DNA from: a virus
Reading direction: 5' to 3' (one strand)
DNA length: 52,194 nt
IMG/VR virus record: IMGVR_UViG_3300033141_005196
Span: 1-52,194 of that record
The notes under the pieces are model-generated. The model worked only from the letters and a program-made list of their open reading frames with translations, made no database searches and had not been told where the DNA came from. Below, one piece after another: positions 226 through 52,194 of this stretch; within the stretch, counting starts at the first letter, position 1, and every line of letters begins with the position of its first letter. The position numbers and the translations under genes were made by a program.

Positions 226-254
226 TTGACAGTCCTCGGCCACTATGCTATACT
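226..254 (+). promoter_or_regulatory. Sigma70-type early promoter
   Basis: TTGACA at 226-231 and TATACT at 249-254 are separated by exactly 17 bp, a near-consensus -35/-10 pair. The predicted start of transcription near 261 leaves a leader of about 35 bases before the first gene at 297. This is the best candidate for the main promoter of the rightward arm. Confidence 0.85.
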
Positions 255-6730: not shown

Positions 6731-6955
6731 ATGAGTGAACAAGAAAGTCAACAGCCAATCATGGCATACACACTCCGAGAAGTTCCTCGAGATCTTCACA
6801 GTGCATGGAAAGCGGCGGCTGCTCTGCGAGGGCTTTCTATGAGGGCGTACGCAATCATCGCCCTATCCGAGAAGGTCAAGAGGGACTTCCAGGCGTATAG
6901 GAAGGAGGTCGAGAGTATTGGAGCAGATTCTAAATCTCAGGGAGATGTCCGATGA
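6731..6955 (+). CDS. Ribbon–helix–helix-like DNA-binding protein
   Basis: Product of 74 aa. Residues 11-50 (a short beta strand, then VPRDLHSAWKAAAAL and GLSMRAYAIIAL helices) match the layout of Arc/FitA-type ribbon–helix–helix domains, which bind DNA as dimers and often autoregulate. It overlaps the next gene. It is one of the few transcription-factor-like candidates in the genome. Confidence 0.6.
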   Translation: MSEQESQQPIMAYTLREVPRDLHSAWKAAAALRGLSMRAYAIIALSEKVKRDFQAYRKEVESIGADSKSQGDVR

Positions 6956-11140: not shown

Positions 11141-12532
11141 ATGGCGATGATGAAAATTTCTGACATCAAAGTAACAGATCGCGCAAGAAAAGAGCTTGGA
11201 GATATCGAGGAGCTTGCAAAGAGTATTGAGAAGAGGGGACTTATAAATCCAATCTGCGTTGAGCGAAGCTCGGGAGAGCTAATTGCCGGCTTTCGTCGTC
11301 TCGCAGCCTGTCAGCTCCTCGAATTCGATGAGATAGAGGTGAAGTATTATGAGGATCTTGATCCAATTGAAAAGAAGCTGCTAGAGCTTGAAGAAAATCT
11401 CCACAAGGAGTTTACGTGGGACGAGCAAGCTCAGCTCAGAGTCGAAATTCACAATCTCCACTGCGAGTTGAAGGGAAAGAAAGTGAGGGGTCGAAAGACT
11501 GATGGATGGGGAATCGAAGACACAGCTGAGCTGCTCAATGTCTCTCCGGCCACGATTTCTCAGGACATGGCACTGGTTGAGGGAATGAGTTATATCAAAG
11601 ACCTCAAAAAGCTCACGTCCAGAAATCAAGCCCTCAAAGCGCTGGACCGGTTTCAGGAGATGGCGGTGCTTGAGGAAATTGCTAGAAGAGAGCGAGAATA
11701 TCAGGAAGCCGTCGAGAATCTAGATGCAGGCTCAGATGTAGATACAGACTCAGACATTTCACAAATAATCCCAGCCCCAATGCCATACCGGATATTCTGT
11801 GGTGATGCAGTTGAAGTGCTGAAAGAGAAAGTAGATGACGAGACTATAAGTCTTGTGATCTTCGACCCTCCATGGGGCATTGACATCGACGCCTACAAAG
11901 GCGGTATCTCTGCCTTCAAAGCTCAGTATCGCGACGACTGGCACTATGCTTTTGGGCTGATATTTAAAATCCTCGAAGAGCTTTATCGAGTGATGCAAGA
12001 CGATACGCACATGTACTTTTTCTGCAGCCCTACCGATTTCTCACTGTGGCGGGATGTGCTTACTGGAGACTTTGACTACTTGACCTCGCTTGAGCTACTC
12101 TTTCCCAACTCTACAAAATCACTCCCAAAAATCGAAGTTCCTTGGAAGTTTCATGTGCAATCAACACCGCTAATCTGGTTGAAGGATGGAGGAGCGTTCA
12201 CGAACACAGATTATAACTTCATGTCCCGCACCGAAATAATCCTCTTCTGCTCAAAGGGCGTTGGACGAAGGCTCCGTGAACCCAGCCTTAATGTCTTTGA
12301 CATCAAACGAACCCCTACAACTGAGCGACGTCATCCACAAGAAAAGCCCGTAGAGCTGATGCAACGACTGATAAAGCTCTCTACCGTCGAGAACGAAATT
12401 GTTCTCGATCCATGTGCCGGCTCTTTCTCCACAGCGTTAGCTGCAACACTCCTCGGACGGAGGAGTGTTTCGATTGAGAAGGACGAGAAATACTTTGGAA
12501 TTGGGGTTGAGAGGCTTAAGTTTGGAGGCTGA
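11141..12532 (+). CDS. ParB-like domain fused to DNA methyltransferase
   Basis: Product of 463 aa. The N-terminal 100 residues are a ParB/Srx-type domain (SGELIAGFRRLAACQ near 44-58). Residues 125-145 (IEDTAELLNVSPATISQDM) are a helix–turn–helix. The C-terminal 250 residues are a DNA methyltransferase with catalytic DPPWG at 242-246 and the SAM-binding DPCAGSFST at 423-431; this order fits the beta class, which methylates adenine N6 or cytosine N4. Protection of phage DNA from restriction or marking of replication sites are both possible; the target sequence cannot be read from the protein. Confidence 0.85.
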   Translation: MAMMKISDIKVTDRARKELGDIEELAKSIEKRGLINPICVERSSGELIAGFRRLAACQLLEFDEIEVKYYEDLDPIEKKLLELEENLHKEFTWDEQAQLRVEIHNLHCELKGKKVRGRKTDGWGIEDTAELLNVSPATISQDMALVEGMSYIKDLKKLTSRNQALKALDRFQEMAVLEEIARREREYQEAVENLDAGSDVDTDSDISQIIPAPMPYRIFCGDAVEVLKEKVDDETISLVIFDPPWGIDIDAYKGGISAFKAQYRDDWHYAFGLIFKILEELYRVMQDDTHMYFFCSPTDFSLWRDVLTGDFDYLTSLELLFPNSTKSLPKIEVPWKFHVQSTPLIWLKDGGAFTNTDYNFMSRTEIILFCSKGVGRRLREPSLNVFDIKRTPTTERRHPQEKPVELMQRLIKLSTVENEIVLDPCAGSFSTALAATLLGRRSVSIEKDEKYFGIGVERLKFGG

Positions 12533-16889: not shown

Positions 16890-19163
16890 ATGCACAAATG
16901 GGTCGGACCTTGCGGTCCACTTGATGCACAAATAGTTCTTATCGGTGAGGCTCCAGCCAGGGTAGAGTGTGAAGTAGGTGTGCCATTCAAAGGCTCTGCA
17001 GGAAGGTATTTGGATATGCTCCTCAGAGCTGCGGGACTTCCTCGTGACGCGCTTCGCATCACAAACCTTGTAAAGATGAGAGTCCCACAGGACAAGATTT
17101 CAAAAGTCTCGAAGAAAGAGCTTGCAGTTTGGAAAGAGAAGCTGATTGAGGAAATCAACGATCTCCCAAACGTCAAGGTTATTGTGCCTCTGGGAAATTT
17201 CCCTCTAGAAGCAGTTACTGGAAAGAGCGGAATTACAAACTTCCGTGGCTCACCCTTAAAGCCCATCTCCACAATCAATCACAACTGCATCGTAATTCCA
17301 ACATTTCACCCATCCTACCTCCACTACGGAGGCAATTGGAGTGTGTGGCCGCTCATGGTTGCAGACTTCGCAAAGGCGAAGAGAGTTGCATTTTCGGACG
17401 AGCCTTTCAAATTCCCCACATTTCACTTCACTCTCAAGCCAAGCTTGGAAGAAGTGATAGAAACTGTGGAGATGCTAGTCCGAGAGGCAAGGCCGGCGGT
17501 CATCGATGTCGAAACACCACATAACTTACTTTCCTGCATCGGCCTCGGTTGGAGCAGACAAGATGCAATTTGCGTCCCTTTCTTTATGGGAAATGGCGCA
17601 AATTATTGGACCGAGGAGCAAGAACTCTTCCTCTGGAAGTTTCTCGCTAAGAATCTTCCCAAGCTCGAACTCCGCGCCCACAACTCCCTCTTTGACTGGA
17701 GGGTTCTCTTAGAGCACGGAATTCACCTCAAGCCGCCCATCTGGGACTCGATGTTCATGCATCACTGTCTCTATAGTGATCTACCCCACAAGTTAGATAT
17801 CGTAACCAGTATCTACACAGACATTGCATACTACAAGAGCGACGAGGACGAAATAAAAGGCTCCGCACTTTTTGCAGGACGGGAGCTTGAACACTGGGAG
17901 TATAACTGCATGGACTGTGTGGCCACATTTTGGTGCATCGAAGAACTAAAGCAAGAGCTTGAAGAGGAAGAGATGCTCGGTGTCTATCACGATCTCTATG
18001 TCGAGATGTTCGAGCCTATCTTCAAACTCAACATTCGAGGAACTCCCGTTGATCTAGAAAGACTAGCCGAGGCCAGAGAGGTTCTGAAGAAGCTAATTTC
18101 TCAATACACGCAGGAAATCCAAGATGCCACTGGCATGCTAATAAACGCAAACTCCCCAAAGCAGGTTGCAGAGTTGCTCTATGGCAAGCTTGGAATGCAA
18201 CGGTACAAGCGCGGAGGCTCTACGTCGAAAGATGTACTTAAGCAACTGGCGCATAAGTATCAAACCGACGTGCCCCTGAAGATCATTGACATCCGTGAAG
18301 CCCGCAGACAGCTTGGTCTCTTCTCAGATGAAAATGTTCAAGAAGGCCGTGTGAAGTGTGAGTACTCTCTTACCCGCACTGCCACAGGTCGTCTTGCCTC
18401 TCGAAAGGGCCGTAGAGGAGGAATGAATCTGCAAAACGTAAAACGTGGAGAGCAACGTCGCTTCTTCACAGCTGAGCCTGGAGAGGTTTTGCTCGGAGCA
18501 GATCAATCCCAAGCCGAAGCGAGGATTGTCGCGTGGTATTCGAAAGATCGGAACATGCTAAAACTCTTCGAGAGCGGAGTTTCGATTCACTTGCAAAATG
18601 CGAAGAACGTTTACGGTGAAGATATCTCAAAAAGCGATCCACGTTATACGATAGCGAAGGGTCTGGTGCACGGTGGAAATTATGGCCTCGGACCCAAGAA
18701 GTTCAGCCTTATGACAGGCGTGGACTTTAGCACTTCCAAGTACCTGTTGGAAACATACCATACCAAATACCCAGGAATACGAAAGAACTTCCACAATTAC
18801 GTTGAGAGGGAGATTCAGAGATGCAGAATGCTTTACAATCCATTCGGCCGAAGGCAAGTTTTCCTCGGGAGGCTCGACGACCCTGCAACATTCCGCGCTG
18901 GATATGCATTTCTCCCTCAGAGTACCGTATCCGATGTCAACAAAAAAGCATTGAAGTTTCTAACGAGAGCCGGCTTTAATGTGCTCTTAGAACTTCACGA
19001 CGGAATAATCATCTCAATAAAAGAAAGTGAGCTGAAATTTGGCATTGAGGCCTTTATAGAGGCATACAGCACTGAATTTCGCATTTGGGATTACACATGT
19101 AAACTCCCTATTGAAATCAGCTACGGCCCGAACTGGGCTGATATGGAGGTAGTAGAAATATGA
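16890..19163 (+). CDS. UDG–exonuclease–family A DNA polymerase fusion
   Basis: Product of 757 aa. Residues 1-165 resemble a family 4/5-type uracil-DNA glycosylase (GEAPARVE at 19-26, FKGSAGRYLD near 33-42, HPS at 140-142), though the family's iron–sulphur Cys set is not complete. Residues 200-350 are a DEDDy 3'-5' exonuclease (D206, E208, D269, Y338, D342). The C-terminal part is a family A polymerase: motif A GADQSQAEAR with D538, the O-helix KGLVHGGNYG (K590-G599), motif C HDG with H703 and D704. The position equal to E. coli Phe762 is H594. It is the replicative polymerase; the N-terminal domain may read or remove uracil. Confidence 0.9.
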   Translation: MHKWVGPCGPLDAQIVLIGEAPARVECEVGVPFKGSAGRYLDMLLRAAGLPRDALRITNLVKMRVPQDKISKVSKKELAVWKEKLIEEINDLPNVKVIVPLGNFPLEAVTGKSGITNFRGSPLKPISTINHNCIVIPTFHPSYLHYGGNWSVWPLMVADFAKAKRVAFSDEPFKFPTFHFTLKPSLEEVIETVEMLVREARPAVIDVETPHNLLSCIGLGWSRQDAICVPFFMGNGANYWTEEQELFLWKFLAKNLPKLELRAHNSLFDWRVLLEHGIHLKPPIWDSMFMHHCLYSDLPHKLDIVTSIYTDIAYYKSDEDEIKGSALFAGRELEHWEYNCMDCVATFWCIEELKQELEEEEMLGVYHDLYVEMFEPIFKLNIRGTPVDLERLAEAREVLKKLISQYTQEIQDATGMLINANSPKQVAELLYGKLGMQRYKRGGSTSKDVLKQLAHKYQTDVPLKIIDIREARRQLGLFSDENVQEGRVKCEYSLTRTATGRLASRKGRRGGMNLQNVKRGEQRRFFTAEPGEVLLGADQSQAEARIVAWYSKDRNMLKLFESGVSIHLQNAKNVYGEDISKSDPRYTIAKGLVHGGNYGLGPKKFSLMTGVDFSTSKYLLETYHTKYPGIRKNFHNYVEREIQRCRMLYNPFGRRQVFLGRLDDPATFRAGYAFLPQSTVSDVNKKALKFLTRAGFNVLLELHDGIIISIKESELKFGIEAFIEAYSTEFRIWDYTCKLPIEISYGPNWADMEVVEI

Positions 19164-47806: not shown

Positions 47807-49273
47807 CTAATGAAGCATCTGAAACCTTCTAAGTCCGCTGGAGGGAATGTTTAAATCCCACCTCGATGTCTTTCGAAACTCCTCATTAACCTTCGTAAGA
47901 GTTCCAACAAAGTTAGGAGCATCCTCCTGCTTAGCACAAAGCTCTGCACGTAGAAAAGCGTACATGAGCGAGTCCGCGTGGTCTGGCGAAGTGCTCATAC
48001 TCTCTTTCGGAGGCATTTTGATCTTGCCATTTGCCATCTGAAACTTCAACGTCCCCAACTCCACGAGCAGTTGATCCGGCCACGAATTGCAGTAAAGGTG
48101 AGGAATTATGTTCCTCAACTCCCAGTAACCCTGTGCCCGAAGGTTGAGGTAATTTCTGGCAAATTCGCCCTCAGGACTCGCAGAGCCATAAACGGCGTAT
48201 GTAATTGCTGGATAGAGACGCTTTACGTAGTCATAAATCGGTGCTCCGAGCCCCGTTGCATCAATCTTAATTGCCGTTGGGCGGTATGCTTGAGCATGCT
48301 CCACAATCCAATTGCCGATGTCAATTGCATCGTCCACCTTCCCCACATAAGCATGCACATCGATCTTAAGTACCTGATTTCCTCGCCTCACAGTCAGAAC
48401 TGTCCTGTTACTCGTCCGCCCGATATCAACTCCGAACTCATGTCCGGCCCCGTCATATGAAACCACACTCCGGTCGTTATTCACCATCTTCTCAAGATAA
48501 TCCGGAGGTATGAGCAAGTCTCCAATTGACCCTGGAAATTCACCGAGCACCTTGATTTTGTAAATTGGGTGATCCTCTCCATACCTCGCTTTCATCATCT
48601 TAATCCACCGCTCCGACACGAACTTCGAATCGAGGCCGGAGACGTGAATGAGATGATACAACCCATGCATGTTAATATCGTTAAAAACGCTGTGAAAGTA
48701 GCCTGCATCTCGAGTTGGATTTGAGGCCAAGATACAGTATGCATTCGGCCCCGTAAATGCCCCTTCAATTGCCGGATAGATCGCATCGGGAACACCAGAT
48801 GCCTCATCAACAATAAACAAGAGGTTATCCTCTGCATGAAACCCCTGCAAACCCTCAGCCACCGTGCCGTCTGGCGAAACTCGTGCAGTACGTGCTACTG
48901 CGTACCAATTCGGCTCATGACCTACCACTCCAATTTTCGTTTGCTTCCATCGAAGAATATGCCCCAGGTACTCGCTATTCGAGATCCACTTATAACACTC
49001 AGCCCAAAGCAGGTCAAAAAGCTGATGTTGAGATGGAGCTGTACACGGTACTCTAGAATTTGGCCGAGTGGCCAGGAACCAAAGAAGTGCAAGGGCTAGG
49101 AAAACCGTCTTACCAACGCCCGATCCGGACCGAATCGCTACGAAGTGATCCTTCTGCAACGCCTCAAAGGCATCGATCTGCCACTGATCAAAATCAACCC
49201 CGTCCACCAAGTCTTGCAGGAACTCTACAGGATGATCAACATAATAGCTCAACGCTTCTACGCTCAAGTTCAC
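47807..49273 (-). CDS. Large terminase subunit
   Basis: Product of 488 aa. ATPase motifs: Walker A SGSGVGKT (49-56), Walker B LLFIVDEAS with D156 and E157. Nuclease motifs: GVDIGRT with D283, IKIDATG with D338, and SPDHADS with D431/D434. It pumps and cuts DNA during packaging. The GTG start overlaps the stop of the small subunit gene (GTGA). Confidence 0.9.
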   Translation of the reverse strand: MNLSVEALSYYVDHPVEFLQDLVDGVDFDQWQIDAFEALQKDHFVAIRSGSGVGKTVFLALALLWFLATRPNSRVPCTAPSQHQLFDLLWAECYKWISNSEYLGHILRWKQTKIGVVGHEPNWYAVARTARVSPDGTVAEGLQGFHAEDNLLFIVDEASGVPDAIYPAIEGAFTGPNAYCILASNPTRDAGYFHSVFNDINMHGLYHLIHVSGLDSKFVSERWIKMMKARYGEDHPIYKIKVLGEFPGSIGDLLIPPDYLEKMVNNDRSVVSYDGAGHEFGVDIGRTSNRTVLTVRRGNQVLKIDVHAYVGKVDDAIDIGNWIVEHAQAYRPTAIKIDATGLGAPIYDYVKRLYPAITYAVYGSASPEGEFARNYLNLRAQGYWELRNIIPHLYCNSWPDQLLVELGTLKFQMANGKIKMPPKESMSTSPDHADSLMYAFLRAELCAKQEDAPNFVGTLTKVNEEFRKTSRWDLNIPSSGLRRFQMLH

Positions 49274-49713
49274 GATCCGTGCCCCTCGTCAGCATGGCAG
49301 CTTTGCTGCTGCCTCCTCCGATTGTACGCCTCAGTTATCAGTTCCGTGATATCCGCATGAACACTCAAGTGCTTCTCCACAGCCTTATTGCCGGTGCGAT
49401 CAAGAATATCCCAACAACTTTTCAGCCTCAAGGCCAATGGAACATCTTCATTTCTCATCATCCCCACATTGAATTCTGCAGCCTCCGTAGCGGCCTCTTC
49501 AAGCACCTCCATCGCGGTAACGCGTTCTGAAACATACTTTGCCTCAACAACATCCCGCACCTCGGCCAGGGCTGAGGCAAATATTGGATCTCGCTTCAGC
49601 TGCCCGATCCTCTGAGGCGAAATGCCGAGACTTCGGGCGATGCTGGTCTGATCCTCACCCTTTACAAGTCGGCGGATAATCTCCCGATGCCGATCCGTAA
49701 TTCCCTTCAGCAT
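49270..49713 (-). CDS. Small terminase subunit
   Basis: Product of 147 aa. An N-terminal helix–turn–helix (GEDQTSIARSLGISPQRIGQL, seen as residues 19-39) fits DNA recognition, followed by a helical oligomerisation region. It sits directly upstream of the large subunit. Confidence 0.8.
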   Translation of the reverse strand: MLKGITDRHREIIRRLVKGEDQTSIARSLGISPQRIGQLKRDPIFASALAEVRDVVEAKYVSERVTAMEVLEEAATEAAEFNVGMMRNEDVPLALRLKSCWDILDRTGNKAVEKHLSVHADITELITEAYNRRRQQQSCHADEGHGS

Positions 49714-49850
49714 TTCCGAAAACTCCGAAAAGAGTTTGCGAGGAGGCTACGCTCGTTGCGCTTCTCGCGCTCCTGCGTTGTCGCCTTCTTCTGCTCCTGA
49801 ATCAGCTTCTCAAGTCGATTCCATTCACTGCGTTTGATCTTCGGCTCCAT
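49707..49850 (-). CDS. Small basic protein, first gene of the late operon
   Basis: Product of 47 aa, nearly all charged helix (KKATTQEREKRNERS). It starts after GAAGGGACGAT and its stop overlaps the small terminase start, so it is probably co-translated. Function unknown; a packaging accessory role is a guess from place. Confidence 0.5.
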   Translation of the reverse strand: MEPKIKRSEWNRLEKLIQEQKKATTQEREKRNERSLLANSFRSFRKC

Positions 49851-49888
49851 ATCGTCCCTTCCTTCGTATGTTTCGGCCACCCTACTTT

Positions 49889-49917
49889 ACCCTACCACAA
49901 AACCTCGGTTTTTGCAA
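49889..49917 (-). promoter_or_regulatory. Candidate sigma70-type late promoter with dyad in the spacer
   Basis: On the minus strand TTGCAA (49917-49912) and TAGGGT (49894-49889) are 17 bp apart, a moderate -35 and weak -10. An inverted repeat AAAACC-TC-GGTTTT (49899-49912) fills the spacer and could bind a regulator. It lies 39 bases upstream of the first late gene. Confidence 0.4.
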
Positions 49918-50183
49918 GGATAAACTTTTGGTGGGATTGCAAAGGGTAGCTTCGCTGCTCGCGACATCTTTGATTGTTGAGTCTGTATCTTGGGCGCGTT
50001 TCGAGAAGTCGTAACACAATTCATACCAATCTAATATCTTGCATAAAAATATCTATTAATTTAATATAGATTAAGCAAGTAGGATGGCACAGAGTTTGCA
50101 TGTGGCACAGAGTTTGCATATTGCAAGTATCATGCCATATGCAAAAGATATACCACATCAAATCGGTAGGAATTGGATGATGT
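49918..50183. other. Non-coding stretch upstream of the late operon
   Basis: No gene is supported. It is AT-rich around 50030-50080 and holds four of the 16-bp TGGCAC-N5-TTGCA-type elements between 50085 and 50155. Confidence 0.6.
50085..50155. repeat. Cluster of four 16-bp sigma54-like elements in palindromic order
   Basis: Two plus-strand copies (50085-50100 and 50103-50118, both TGGCAC-AGAGT-TTGCA) face two minus-strand copies (50122-50137, TGGCAT-GATAC-TTGCA; 50140-50155, TGGTAT-ATCTT-TTGCA). Neighbours are 18 bp apart on each side, so the whole 71-bp block is an imperfect palindrome. The minus copies point at the late operon and could be sigma54 promoters. Confidence 0.75.
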
Positions 50184-50215
50184 AAAAAAGCAGAGCATGT
50201 TCTGCTCTGCTTTTT
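50184..50215. terminator. Strong bidirectional intrinsic terminator
   Basis: AAAAAGCAGAGCA pairs with TGCTCTGCTTTTT through a 13-bp stem with a short loop, T-run on the right and A-run on the left. On the minus strand it ends the gene at 50283; on the plus strand it would end any transcript started at 50085-50118. Confidence 0.85.
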
Positions 50216-50282
50216 GGGTTAAGGTATCCAGAATCGGGTGGCGGATTCTGGACTAAACGCGGGCGTCACTCCGCACAAGCCG

Positions 50283-50618
50283 TCAAGATTTTTTCTTGAC
50301 GGGCTTGATGGCCGATGCTTTCAGCTCAAGCCCGTGAACCGAAAAGCTACGAGCCTTATGAGCTGAAGTATCCGCTTCTTCTGCCAAGCGGCTCAGCTCC
50401 GAAGCCAACTCCGGGTTGCTTTTAGCAACTGCACGGAGTTTGTCTCCGGGCATGGGCAGAGTCCTAGCAGCGTTCCTTACATCCGTAAAGAATTGACGGA
50501 TAGCAAGGTCTGCCACTACCGGATTATCTGCCTTCAGCCAGTCCGGCAGAGTGACAGTCACTGTGCGACAATACCCCTTGGGTATTGTGCCACCTGTCAC
50601 TGTCAGCGTCTCTTTCAT
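50283..50618 (-). CDS. Hypothetical protein encoded alone in the control region
   Basis: Product of 111 aa. The ATG at 50618 follows GGAGGGAGGTGAAAAT, a very strong site; the longer in-frame start would overlap promoter-like DNA and is rejected. A beta-rich N-terminus (TLTVTGGTIPKGYCRTVTVTL) leads to a helical region with AKSNPELASELSRLAEEAD, similar in layout to the protein at 6404. It has its own upstream elements and terminator, so it is a separate transcription unit and a regulator candidate. Confidence 0.6.
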   Translation of the reverse strand: MKETLTVTGGTIPKGYCRTVTVTLPDWLKADNPVVADLAIRQFFTDVRNAARTLPMPGDKLRAVAKSNPELASELSRLAEEADTSAHKARSFSVHGLELKASAIKPVKKKS

Positions 50619-50665
50619 ATTTTCACCTCCCTCCTGCCACCACGTGATATTTGCCCATGATATAA

Positions 50666-50681
50666 TGCAACACACGTGCCA
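50666..50681 (-). promoter_or_regulatory. Candidate sigma54 promoter for the 50283 gene
   Basis: On the minus strand TGGCAC-GTGTG-TTGCA matches the -24/-12 consensus. A start of transcription near 50655 would give a leader of about 37 bases before the gene's ribosome site. Unlike most copies in this region it has no face-to-face partner, which favours a true promoter. Confidence 0.6.
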
Positions 50682-50743
50682 GAAAACAATCATTATTGCA
50701 AAAATATTTCTCAACAATATTCACCACTTAGAGCACTCCCGAT

Positions 50744-50793
50744 ATAAACCGGACATGATAAACCGGACATACCGGACATTCTGGCCGGTTTAT
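50744..50793. repeat. ATAAACCGG operator-like repeats
   Basis: ATAAACCGG occurs at 50744 and 50758, with an inverted copy CCGGTTTAT at 50785-50793; CCGGACAT also occurs three times in the same block. The cluster is about 65-110 bp upstream of the candidate promoter at 50666, a fitting place for an activator or repressor. Confidence 0.6.
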
Positions 50794-50893
50794 GGCCGGA
50801 TTCACGAGACAAATTTCCAAGTGAAAACAGCAACTTGCGGTATTCCGGCCATGTGGCCAAGAAACGTGTCCGGCAAAGATTTGCAGCATTTCA

Positions 50894-50909
50894 TGCAAAA
50901 AACATGCCA
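50894..50909 (-). promoter_or_regulatory. Single 16-bp sigma54-like element
   Basis: Minus strand TGGCAT-GTTTT-TTGCA. It has a looser partner (CGGCAA…TTGCA) on the plus side at a different spacing. It points toward the 50283 gene. Confidence 0.5.
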
Positions 50910-50926
50910 AGTGCGCCGGAGACGCT

Positions 50927-50960
50927 TGGCACAAACTTTGCAATGGCAAATCATATACCA
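50927..50960. repeat. 34-bp palindromic pair of sigma54-like elements
   Basis: Plus half TGGCAC-AAACT-TTGCA (50927-50942) and minus half TGGTAT-ATGAT-TTGCC (50960-50945) face each other across 2 bp. Confidence 0.7.
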
Positions 50961-50993
50961 CAGTATTCCTATAGGTTTAGTATGAATTCCCTC

Positions 50994-51027
50994 TGGCACG
51001 ATACTTGCTATAGCAGAAACCGTACCA
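50994..51027. repeat. 34-bp palindromic pair of sigma54-like elements
   Basis: Plus half TGGCAC-GATAC-TTGCT (50994-51009) and a weaker minus half TGGTAC-GGTTT-CTGCT (51027-51012), separated by 2 bp. Confidence 0.7.
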
Positions 51028-51034
51028 GCGCATG

Positions 51035-51068
51035 TGGCGCACTTCTTGCAATTGCAATATGCGTGCCA
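51035..51068. repeat. 34-bp palindromic pair of sigma54-like elements
   Basis: Plus half TGGCGC-ACTTC-TTGCA (51035-51050) and minus half TGGCAC-GCATA-TTGCA (51068-51053), separated by 2 bp, so the centre reads TTGCAATTGCAA. This is the most symmetrical copy. Confidence 0.8.
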
Positions 51069-51088
51069 AAGTAAATCATACAAATCCA

Positions 51089-51193
51089 ATAGACACCGAG
51101 TTAATAGATATTGAATTGATAGATATTGAATTGATAGATATTGAGACAATAGATATTGAATTGATAGATATTAAGTTAATACCTATTAAATCT
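51089..51193. repeat. Seven 15-bp tandem repeats, iteron-like
   Basis: Units of consensus ATAGATATTGAATTG begin at 51089, 51104, 51119, 51134, 51149, 51164 and 51179. Three are identical; the outer ones are degenerate. The block is AT-rich and next to further AT-rich DNA to 51230. A replication-origin or operator array is plausible. Confidence 0.85.
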
Positions 51194-51241
51194 GTATGAA
51201 TAAAGTATATTATCATACTAGTCTTTCCTCACCCCACGTGT

Positions 51242-51559
51242 TGTCGCAAGTCGATATGTCGCACGGCAGTGTATGTCGCAGGTCGGTTCGCGTTATGTCG
51301 AGGAGCCATCATGGTCGATGTCCTGCACCGCAGGTGTAGAGCATCAGTCCCGCTCTACATTGTCGGTGCACAGTATGTCGAGGGATCATCCATGTCGAGG
51401 GAGCACGGCTCTTCAGGAGCACAGAGGAGAGGATCATGTACATCAAAGATGACAACAACCCTTCCTGCAGCTGGCTTTGTCGCATGTCGATGTTGTCGCA
51501 TGATGCCATAGTCGAAGCATAACTCCCTCGGTATCTTTGGAGAGATCATCTTAATGTCG
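51242..51559. repeat. Cluster of TGTCG direct repeats
   Basis: Eleven TGTCG copies start at 51242, 51257, 51274, 51296, 51361, 51376, 51393, 51478, 51485, 51494 and 51555. The spacing 15 then 17 occurs twice (51242 set and 51361 set), as if a block was duplicated 119 bp away. Several extend to TGTCGCA or TGTCGAGG. No gene is credible here. Confidence 0.75.
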
Positions 51560-51646
51560 GACCATGTATCGACCGGATCATGTATATGATCATCCCAGAC
51601 TTCAGAGAGCCGAGGATTGGATGATTTGATGTACACATCAGGACCA

Positions 51647-51698
51647 TGGCACGCTTCTTGCAATAGCAATCCGCAGGCCACATGCAAGTCTCGTGCCA
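51647..51698. repeat. Palindromic pair plus extra sigma54-like element
   Basis: Plus half TGGCAC-GCTTC-TTGCA (51647-51662), minus half TGGCCT-GCGGA-TTGCT (51680-51665) across 2 bp, and a second minus copy TGGCAC-GAGAC-TTGCA (51698-51683) 18 bp further on. The plus copy points toward the right end and, on a circle, toward the early genes. Confidence 0.7.
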
Positions 51699-51809
51699 AA
51701 GCTGCGCTTCATGCCACCTGCGCCAGAGGCGCGACTGCGCCACACTGACGTGAGGCAGATGCTCAATTCCCGGACAAGCGCACTGTCCTGCAGAGCAGGC
51801 TGGTTGTTT

Positions 51810-51833
51810 GTAATTTTAGTGCGGTAAAGTTAT
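51810..51833. repeat. Dispersed palindrome, copy 6
   Basis: GTAATTTTA-GTGCGG-TAAAGTTAT; two changes from the best copies. Confidence 0.75.
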
Positions 51834-51923
51834 TTTTGTAAGGAAATCCAGTACTTAGGAAAAGGCTAATGAAATCAATAACTTAACTCGGCCAAACTGT
51901 AAGAATCGTTCTTAAAATCGCTG

Positions 51924-52007
51924 TAAGTTACCGAATTTACTAGTTTTCCTTTTTTGCCTTTGTAAGTCATTGAAATTACACCAGTTTCCCAATTTCCCAG
52001 TTTTCTT
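51924..52007 (-). repeat. Right arm of 84-bp end-to-end inverted repeat
   Basis: Reverse complement of this arm aligns ungapped with 98-181 at about 77% identity. The most conserved part is nearest the coding side (51924-51945). Its outer side leads to a TAAAATTAC half-site, as on the left. Confidence 0.8.
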
Positions 52008-52112
52008 AACTGTAGCTCTCGACAGCCCACTAAAATTACAAACAGGACAAGAACGCGCCTGCGGCGTGCTGCGCCTGCGGCACGAAGTGCTTGCACACCT
52101 CCGCGTCTGTCC

Positions 52113-52136
52113 GTAACTTTAGCGCGGTAAAATTGC
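52113..52136. repeat. Dispersed palindrome, copy 7
   Basis: GTAACTTTA-GCGCGG-TAAAATTGC. The preceding CCTCCGCGTCTG matches, in reverse complement, the CAGACGCGGAGG that follows copy 1 near 3843-3854, so these two copies share a longer element. Confidence 0.8.
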
Positions 52137-52194
52137 AAACAAGCGCGGAGACGAGCGAGCGCATGAGCACAGGCGCGCATGTATATTAAAAAAA

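Follow-up and report, generated by a model that had tools for sequence, protein, structure and literature searches.

Face-to-face pairs of sigma54-type sites in helically phased arrays of a tailed phage and of unrelated phages

Sigma54 is the one bacterial sigma factor that needs an activating ATPase to start transcription. To our knowledge, reports of phages using it concern mainly single promoters. The record of Pseudomonas phage YuA annotates -24/-12 promoters of high measured activity in the structural-gene region, and the original report is said to have found the late promoters of this phage to be rpoN-dependent. Plasmid origins offer a different kind of precedent: their iteron arrays and Rep-dimer operators consist of bipartite repeats, both tandem and inverted, within a non-coding control region, and iterons are specific to each replicon. 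For bacterial sigma54 promoters, a ChIP-supported list exists for Salmonella (PMC3844500). Among bacterial sigma70 promoters, bidirectional ones are common; they work in one orientation at a time and have their starts most often 18 bp apart (PMC12825309).

The DNA analysed here, hereafter the window, comprises all 52194 bases of an IMG/VR record from a tailed phage. Early and replication genes run rightward over 1-20.6 kb (exonuclease, DHH phosphoesterase, Sak4-like, ParB-methyltransferase fusion, UDG-PolA fusion and primase-like DUF3987), and late genes run leftward from the terminase small subunit at 49.7 kb to about 21 kb. The sites described below form an array between these two arms, and the GC-skew minimum of the window is at 49906. 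One of the fusions joins a uracil-DNA glycosylase domain to a family A DNA polymerase (16890-19163) and the other a ParB N-terminal domain to an N6/N4 DNA methyltransferase (11141-12532). Both record ends are poly-A (1-18 and 52188-52194), so the genome may be circular or permuted and cut in an A-run, in which case the array would stand directly upstream of the early genes. We found no confirmed relatives of the window in viral contigs using its terminase, no DNA similar to its control region in phage records and no match in Rfam.

Within 50085-51698 we located 15 sites (Table 1), and every coordinate and strand given by the first-pass annotation proved correct. Five face-to-face pairs with a gap of 2-3 bp are present, measuring 19 bp start to start in 50103/50122 and 18 bp each in 50927/50945, 50994/51012, 51035/51053 and 51647/51665, and tandem copies lie 18 bp apart at 50085/50103, 50122/50140 and 51665/51683. 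The motif had been noted as missing from the rest of the window, and this holds in a systematic search: the 11 sites with at most one mismatch to TGGCAC-N5-TTGCA all fall within 50085-51698, and the remaining 50.6 kb has none. Because five of the 15 sites score clearly lower, most pairs consist of one strong and one weak site, and only the pair 51035/51053 fits the strict two-sided pattern with at most one mismatch. From the site on the minus strand at 50666, transcription is predicted to start near 50655; the ATG of a leftward gene follows 37 nt later, at 50618, and has a strong GGAGG-type ribosome-binding site. The inverted repeat between that gene and the leftmost sites is likely, from its sequence, to be a bidirectional terminator separating the 50283-50618 gene from the 50085-50155 block.

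Table 1. Sites of the array and neighbouring features of the window, with scores from the Salmonella sigma54 matrix
Feature	Position	Strand	Score or basis
Sigma54-type site TGGCACAGAGTTTGCA (-24/-12), tandem copy 1	50085..50100	+	18.9
Sigma54-type site TGGCACAGAGTTTGCA, left arm of pair with 50122	50103..50118	+	18.9
Sigma54-type site TGGCATGATACTTGCA, right arm of pair with 50103, directed left to late operon	50122..50137	-	19.8
Weaker site TGGTATATCTTTTGCA, tandem to 50122	50140..50155	-	13.6
Unpaired site TGGCACGTGTGTTGCA	50666..50681	-	19.1
Sigma54-type site TGGCATGTTTTTTGCA	50894..50909	-	21.3
Sigma54-type site TGGCACAAACTTTGCA, strong arm of pair with 50945	50927..50942	+	20.0
Weak arm TGGTATATGATTTGCC of pair with 50927	50945..50960	-	<8
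Sigma54-type site TGGCACGATACTTGCT, strong arm of pair with 51012	50994..51009	+	20.4
Weak arm TGGTACGGTTTCTGCT of pair with 50994	51012..51027	-	13.9
Site TGGCGCACTTCTTGCA, left arm of best palindrome, fits strict 34-mer	51035..51050	+	13.3
Sigma54-type site TGGCACGCATATTGCA, right arm of best palindrome	51053..51068	-	21.1
Sigma54-type site TGGCACGCTTCTTGCA, strong arm of pair with 51665	51647..51662	+	20.6
Weak arm TGGCCTGCGGATTGCT of pair with 51647	51665..51680	-	10.6
Sigma54-type site TGGCACGAGACTTGCA, tandem to 51665	51683..51698	-	18.6
Terminase small subunit, first of leftward late operon	49270..49713	-	
47-aa ORF preceding terminase small subunit	49707..49850		
111-aa protein, family unassigned, downstream of site 50666	50283..50618	-	
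Longest non-coding gap of record, contains most of array	50715..52194		
Perfect 13-bp inverted repeat, T runs on both strands	50185..50215		
Consensus sigma70 promoter TTGACA-17-TATACT, upstream of first rightward early gene (ATG 297)	226..254	+	read from sequence

Other repeats occupy the same region. A 15-bp tandem repeat, ATAGATATTGAATTG, is present in 4.6 copies at 51104-51172 and adjoins the dyad 51035/51053; it forms the most AT-rich 100 bp of the record, and one frame gives a short peptide with IDIEL repeats. Numerous short direct repeats of the TGTCG(C/A) type fill the non-coding stretch 51240-51560, and a perfect 17-bp inverted repeat, TGTTTGTAATTTTAGTG, has its arms at 51805-51821 and 52028-52044 with similar GTAA..TTT motifs between them.

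We scored the sites with a matrix built from 29 Salmonella sigma54 promoters. The ten best sites score 18.6-21.3 compared to 14.9-21.5 for the 29 promoters themselves, and 14 of the 15 reach at least 10, so that the resemblance to the sigma54 -24/-12 consensus noted at first pass is borne out by scores in the promoter range. Across the whole window the density elsewhere is far lower, with a best score of 15.2 outside the array; 13 sites scoring at least 12 lie in the 1.7 kb array, against a mean of 3.9 per whole-window order-2 Markov shuffle. The sites carry the GG (-24) and GC (-12) elements at the fixed spacing that defines sigma54 promoters (TGGCAC-N5-TTGC). Agreement extends to positions 6 and 7, which were free or half-free in the motif search: in 144 phage sites other than the search anchors, position 6 is C (.62) or T (.36), compared to.59 and.38 in Salmonella promoters, and position 7 is G (.66) or A (.28), compared to.66 and.34. 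The base preceding TGG is most commonly T (60 % of sites). For comparison, sigma70-like promoters are at chance level in 49500-52194, with 4 found and 4.3 expected. As far as sequence allows the point to be tested, the sites are sigma54 promoters.

To find the paired layout elsewhere, we searched for the strict palindrome TGGYRY-N5-TTGCA-N2-TGCAA-N5-RYRCCA. In viral contigs it matches 49 stretches and its gap-3 version 41, while control gaps of 8 and 13 match 3 and 5 stretches and are thus about 10-fold rarer; some of these control matches themselves lie within arrays, at longer steps. Back-to-back pairs with a gap of 0-30 gave at least 119 matches in the viral contigs. Clustering of the loci by blastn resulted in 83 sequence groups, among which distant relatives may still count separately, and 45 of the 83 have at least four sites within 600 bp. 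In 257 Gb of bacterial and archaeal genomes the strict palindrome occurs in 8 stretches, with about one predicted from equal base composition, and only 2 of the 8 have further sites around it and are real arrays. Both the half-site and the paired spacing, proposed at first pass as the features to look for in related genomes, therefore recur in unrelated ones. Pseudomonas phages PAK_P1 and PAK_P4 are among the carriers of the paired layout, and some relatives of array-bearing phages have no such sites.

Two further groups of carriers were observed. In a T7-like group (L186 7081-7292, L205, L208, L176, L220 and relatives) about nine sites, most of them in strict alternation with a 46-47 bp unit, are placed between the lysis/terminase and early operons. 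Paired sites are also found on contigs of 330-480 kb (L134, L139, L140, L151, L160, L162), which are probably jumbo phages.

The distances between neighbouring sites are narrowly distributed. Measured start to start, face-to-face neighbours are most often 18-19 bp apart (58 group-level distances), and 17 and 20-21 bp are much rarer. The first two scans had preselected this 18-19 bp spacing, whereas the back-to-back set left it free and still yielded face-to-face distances of 17-21 bp. Back-to-back neighbours fall at 22-26, 32-34 and 42-43 bp (near 23, 33 and 43), with none at 27-30 or 40-41 bp, and the 78 group-level distances show a period of 10.5-11 bp (Rayleigh p about 1e-10). These distances place the -24 boxes about 11, 21 or 31 bp apart in back-to-back neighbours and 30-31 bp apart in a face-to-face pair. 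Since these separations are near whole helical turns, all -24 boxes lie close to one face of the helix.

We looked for a protein that could read the sites. In 25 carrier genomes compared, several of them partial, no protein family is common to most; the widest is DNA polymerase A, found in 10-12 genomes, and small DNA-binding families are not common either. In 30 records, neither a phage-coded sigma54 DNA-binding domain nor an activator AAA+ domain exceeded the cut-off, single weak matches below it being found in G026 and G020, and the window's ribbon-helix-helix candidate (6731-6955) gave a sub-threshold match only. The SrpA palindrome of phage K5 (PMC5945682) was considered as a match and ruled out, its sequence being different. 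Near the arrays we found no shared second motif, only C-runs and A-tracts. Given neither a phage sigma54 DNA-binding domain or activator nor a widely shared family, a conserved host factor is the likely reader, and the constancy of the motif in phages without common genes points the same way. We know of no conserved host reader with such a sequence other than sigma54. It is highly probable that host sigma54 reads the sites.

In the mechanism that we favour, the 16-mers would be binding sites for the host sigma54 (RpoN) RNA polymerase, and each face-to-face pair would act as a symmetric overlapping promoter onto which the polymerase is loaded in either orientation. With the standard -24/-12 geometry, each pair would have its two starts about 19 bp apart and be transcribed outward in either direction, but not in both at once; the overlap that follows from 18-19 bp pairing and a 2-3 bp gap would make the two orientations mutually exclusive. 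The array would then form a transcription hub between the leftward late and rightward early operons and control the late genes, the first rightward gene having its own sigma70 promoter. Activation would come from an enhancer-binding protein, presumably the host's, since none was found in the phage, and the phasing would keep all -24 boxes on one DNA face to contact a shared activator. This whole mechanism, in which the pairs serve host sigma54-RNA polymerase as overlapping divergent promoters, has in our judgement an even chance of being right.

We favour overlapping divergent promoters because the geometry of the pairs is like that of sigma70 bidirectional promoters. The first-pass annotation had held that promoters would not be expected to show such symmetry; this symmetry does exist and calls for an explanation, but its unexpectedness is reduced by how common bidirectional sigma70 promoters are (PMC12825309). 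Counting against the mechanism, overlapping promoters alone require neither an 18-19 bp spacing nor phased neighbouring pairs. Strict spacing and phasing thus exceed the needs of a plain divergent promoter and would also be compatible with a symmetric protein assembly, a polymerase trap or an origin. It is conceivable, if rather doubtful, that the pair geometry (18-19 bp, with neighbours 1-3 helical turns apart) brings several units of sigma54 or of sigma54-polymerase together on one DNA face, as a transcription or replication hub in many unrelated virulent phages. Higher-order sigma54 assembly of this kind is not known to us.

One alternative explanation for the strict 18-19 bp pairing, with its rare control spacings, and for the back-to-back period is that a dimeric or oligomeric protein binds the dyads. 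This protein, either phage-coded and fast-evolving or an unrecognised host one, would share or compete for the sigma54 sequence along one DNA face as a repressor or organiser. The retention of both arms in Pakpunavirus genomes whose local annotated genes all point one way is consistent with it. We nevertheless consider it unlikely, given that 111 of 249 clustered sites lack a partner at 17-19 bp, that no shared protein family or sigma54-like DNA-binding domain was found and that the frequency profile equals that of sigma54 promoters. The proposal made at first pass, operators or origin sites of a dimeric protein, accordingly finds no support in a protein (25 genomes, 30 records) or in the positional frequencies, though spacing and phasing would fit a symmetric complex.

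Returning to overlapping promoters, we looked at the genomic setting for signs of their use. The pair groups are intergenic in 44 of 48 cases, with flanking genes divergent in 11 and convergent in 2 (sign test p 0.02). Against a promoter reading, many sites are more than 200 nt from any gene, and single sites face the next gene in 19 cases compared to 15 flipped. An orientation of single sites toward genes had appeared with a rough gene call (28 vs 14) and was dropped as support after the better call; with no clear direction of the single sites, layout does not prove promoter use.

PAK_P1 and PAK_P4 have two site clusters each, one of those in PAK_P4 being at 67531-68480, and in PAK_P4 antisense RNAs from RNA-seq, numbered to 17, are annotated. 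In the record stretches covered (1-48000, 52574-59128 and 66500-71500), 15 of them are in the late region, and the only two outside it, as16 and as17, are both on the two site clusters. The 5' end of as16 is annotated, with rounding, at 55850 and the predicted starts of the pair are 55830 on the minus strand and 55849 on the plus strand, so that as16 begins at the pair within rounding; an annotated sigma70-type promoter lies about 70 nt inside it. Counting against promoter use, the 5' end of as17, which is the broader of the two, lacks a strong site. At the pair, annotated RNA is on the minus strand only. Distant Pseudomonas phages keep the dyad together with a conserved adjoining block of about 65 bp, which may be a protein site and showed no conserved RNA structure beside the PAK_P4 pair (z 0.6). 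This block, CTGTTTGTCTCCGGTGCTCGGCCTCC..GCCTGCGTTGCC, is at L279 3285-3350 (PAK_P4) and in the matching L280-L282, from Pseudomonas phages of several species. A stretch resembling part of a tRNA, with the T-arm-like GGGTGCGAGTCCC, is included in as16 (L279 3077-3277).

The distance of many sites from genes could also mean that the array traps host sigma54-RNA polymerase as closed complexes that stay silent. The array would then be a decoy that competes with the sigma54 regulon, or a roadblock separating early from late transcription. Closed complexes of sigma54 need no activator to be stable, and the many near-consensus sites together with the lack of a phage activator fit such a trap. A decoy, however, needs no fixed dyad, some genomes carry only two or three sites, and RNA-seq RNAs do map to the PAK_P4 clusters; we regard the trap as improbable.

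Equally improbable in our estimate is that the region is a replication origin, in which the dyads would be initiator sites or sigma54 promoters priming replication outward both ways. Its position argues for this: in many genomes the array occupies the longest or second-longest non-coding gap, and in most of 17 genomes it is near the GC-skew minimum (KS p 3e-5); PAK_P1 and G015 have arrays that lie away from it. Skew minima mark points of divergent transcription too, and no initiator gene is shared. The AT-rich 15-bp repeat adjoining the best pair of the window would suit an origin, but AT-rich stretches beside arrays are not general. Finally, chance clustering or functionless expansion of a simple repeat, for which the exact 18-bp tandem copy formed by two sites might speak, has a negligible probability, being contradicted by the viral recurrence at two pair spacings, by the cellular genomes with about one palindrome expected, 8 found and only two real arrays, and by consensus bases kept while spacers vary.

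Taken together, the same arrangement in dozens of unrelated phages suggests a shared, apparently undescribed way to take over host transcription; a literature search of limited coverage returned no description of sigma54 sites set in pairs or arrays in phages. If the reading is true, a sigma54 element of such symmetry and strict spacing, present in dozens of unrelated phages and almost absent from bacterial genomes, would point to a common strategy to take over or park the sigma54 polymerase. The paired element could also serve as a sequence mark for phages with an rpoN-carrying host.

Compared to known systems, the phage sites share with bacterial sigma54 promoters (Salmonella, PMC3844500) the GG/GC distance, the extended consensus and the positional frequencies, and differ from them in their symmetric face-to-face pairs and phased arrays and in having no cognate activator gene alongside. 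The YuA late promoters are likewise phage promoters with -24/-12 elements, so the earlier remark that sigma54 is rare as a main phage control signal needs qualifying; they are single, without TGGCAC-N5-TTGCA sites, pairs or array. With sigma70 bidirectional promoters (PMC12825309) the pairs have in common a pseudo-symmetric sequence that loads polymerase in two orientations, but those promoters share a -10 element, whereas the phage pairs are two complete abutting sigma54 sites with predicted divergent starts. Tandem and inverted bipartite repeats in a non-coding control region are also the mark of iteron and Rep-dimer origins; there, in contrast to the phages, in which no common Rep protein was found (25 genomes), each replicon has its own repeat, while the phage motif is identical across unrelated phages.
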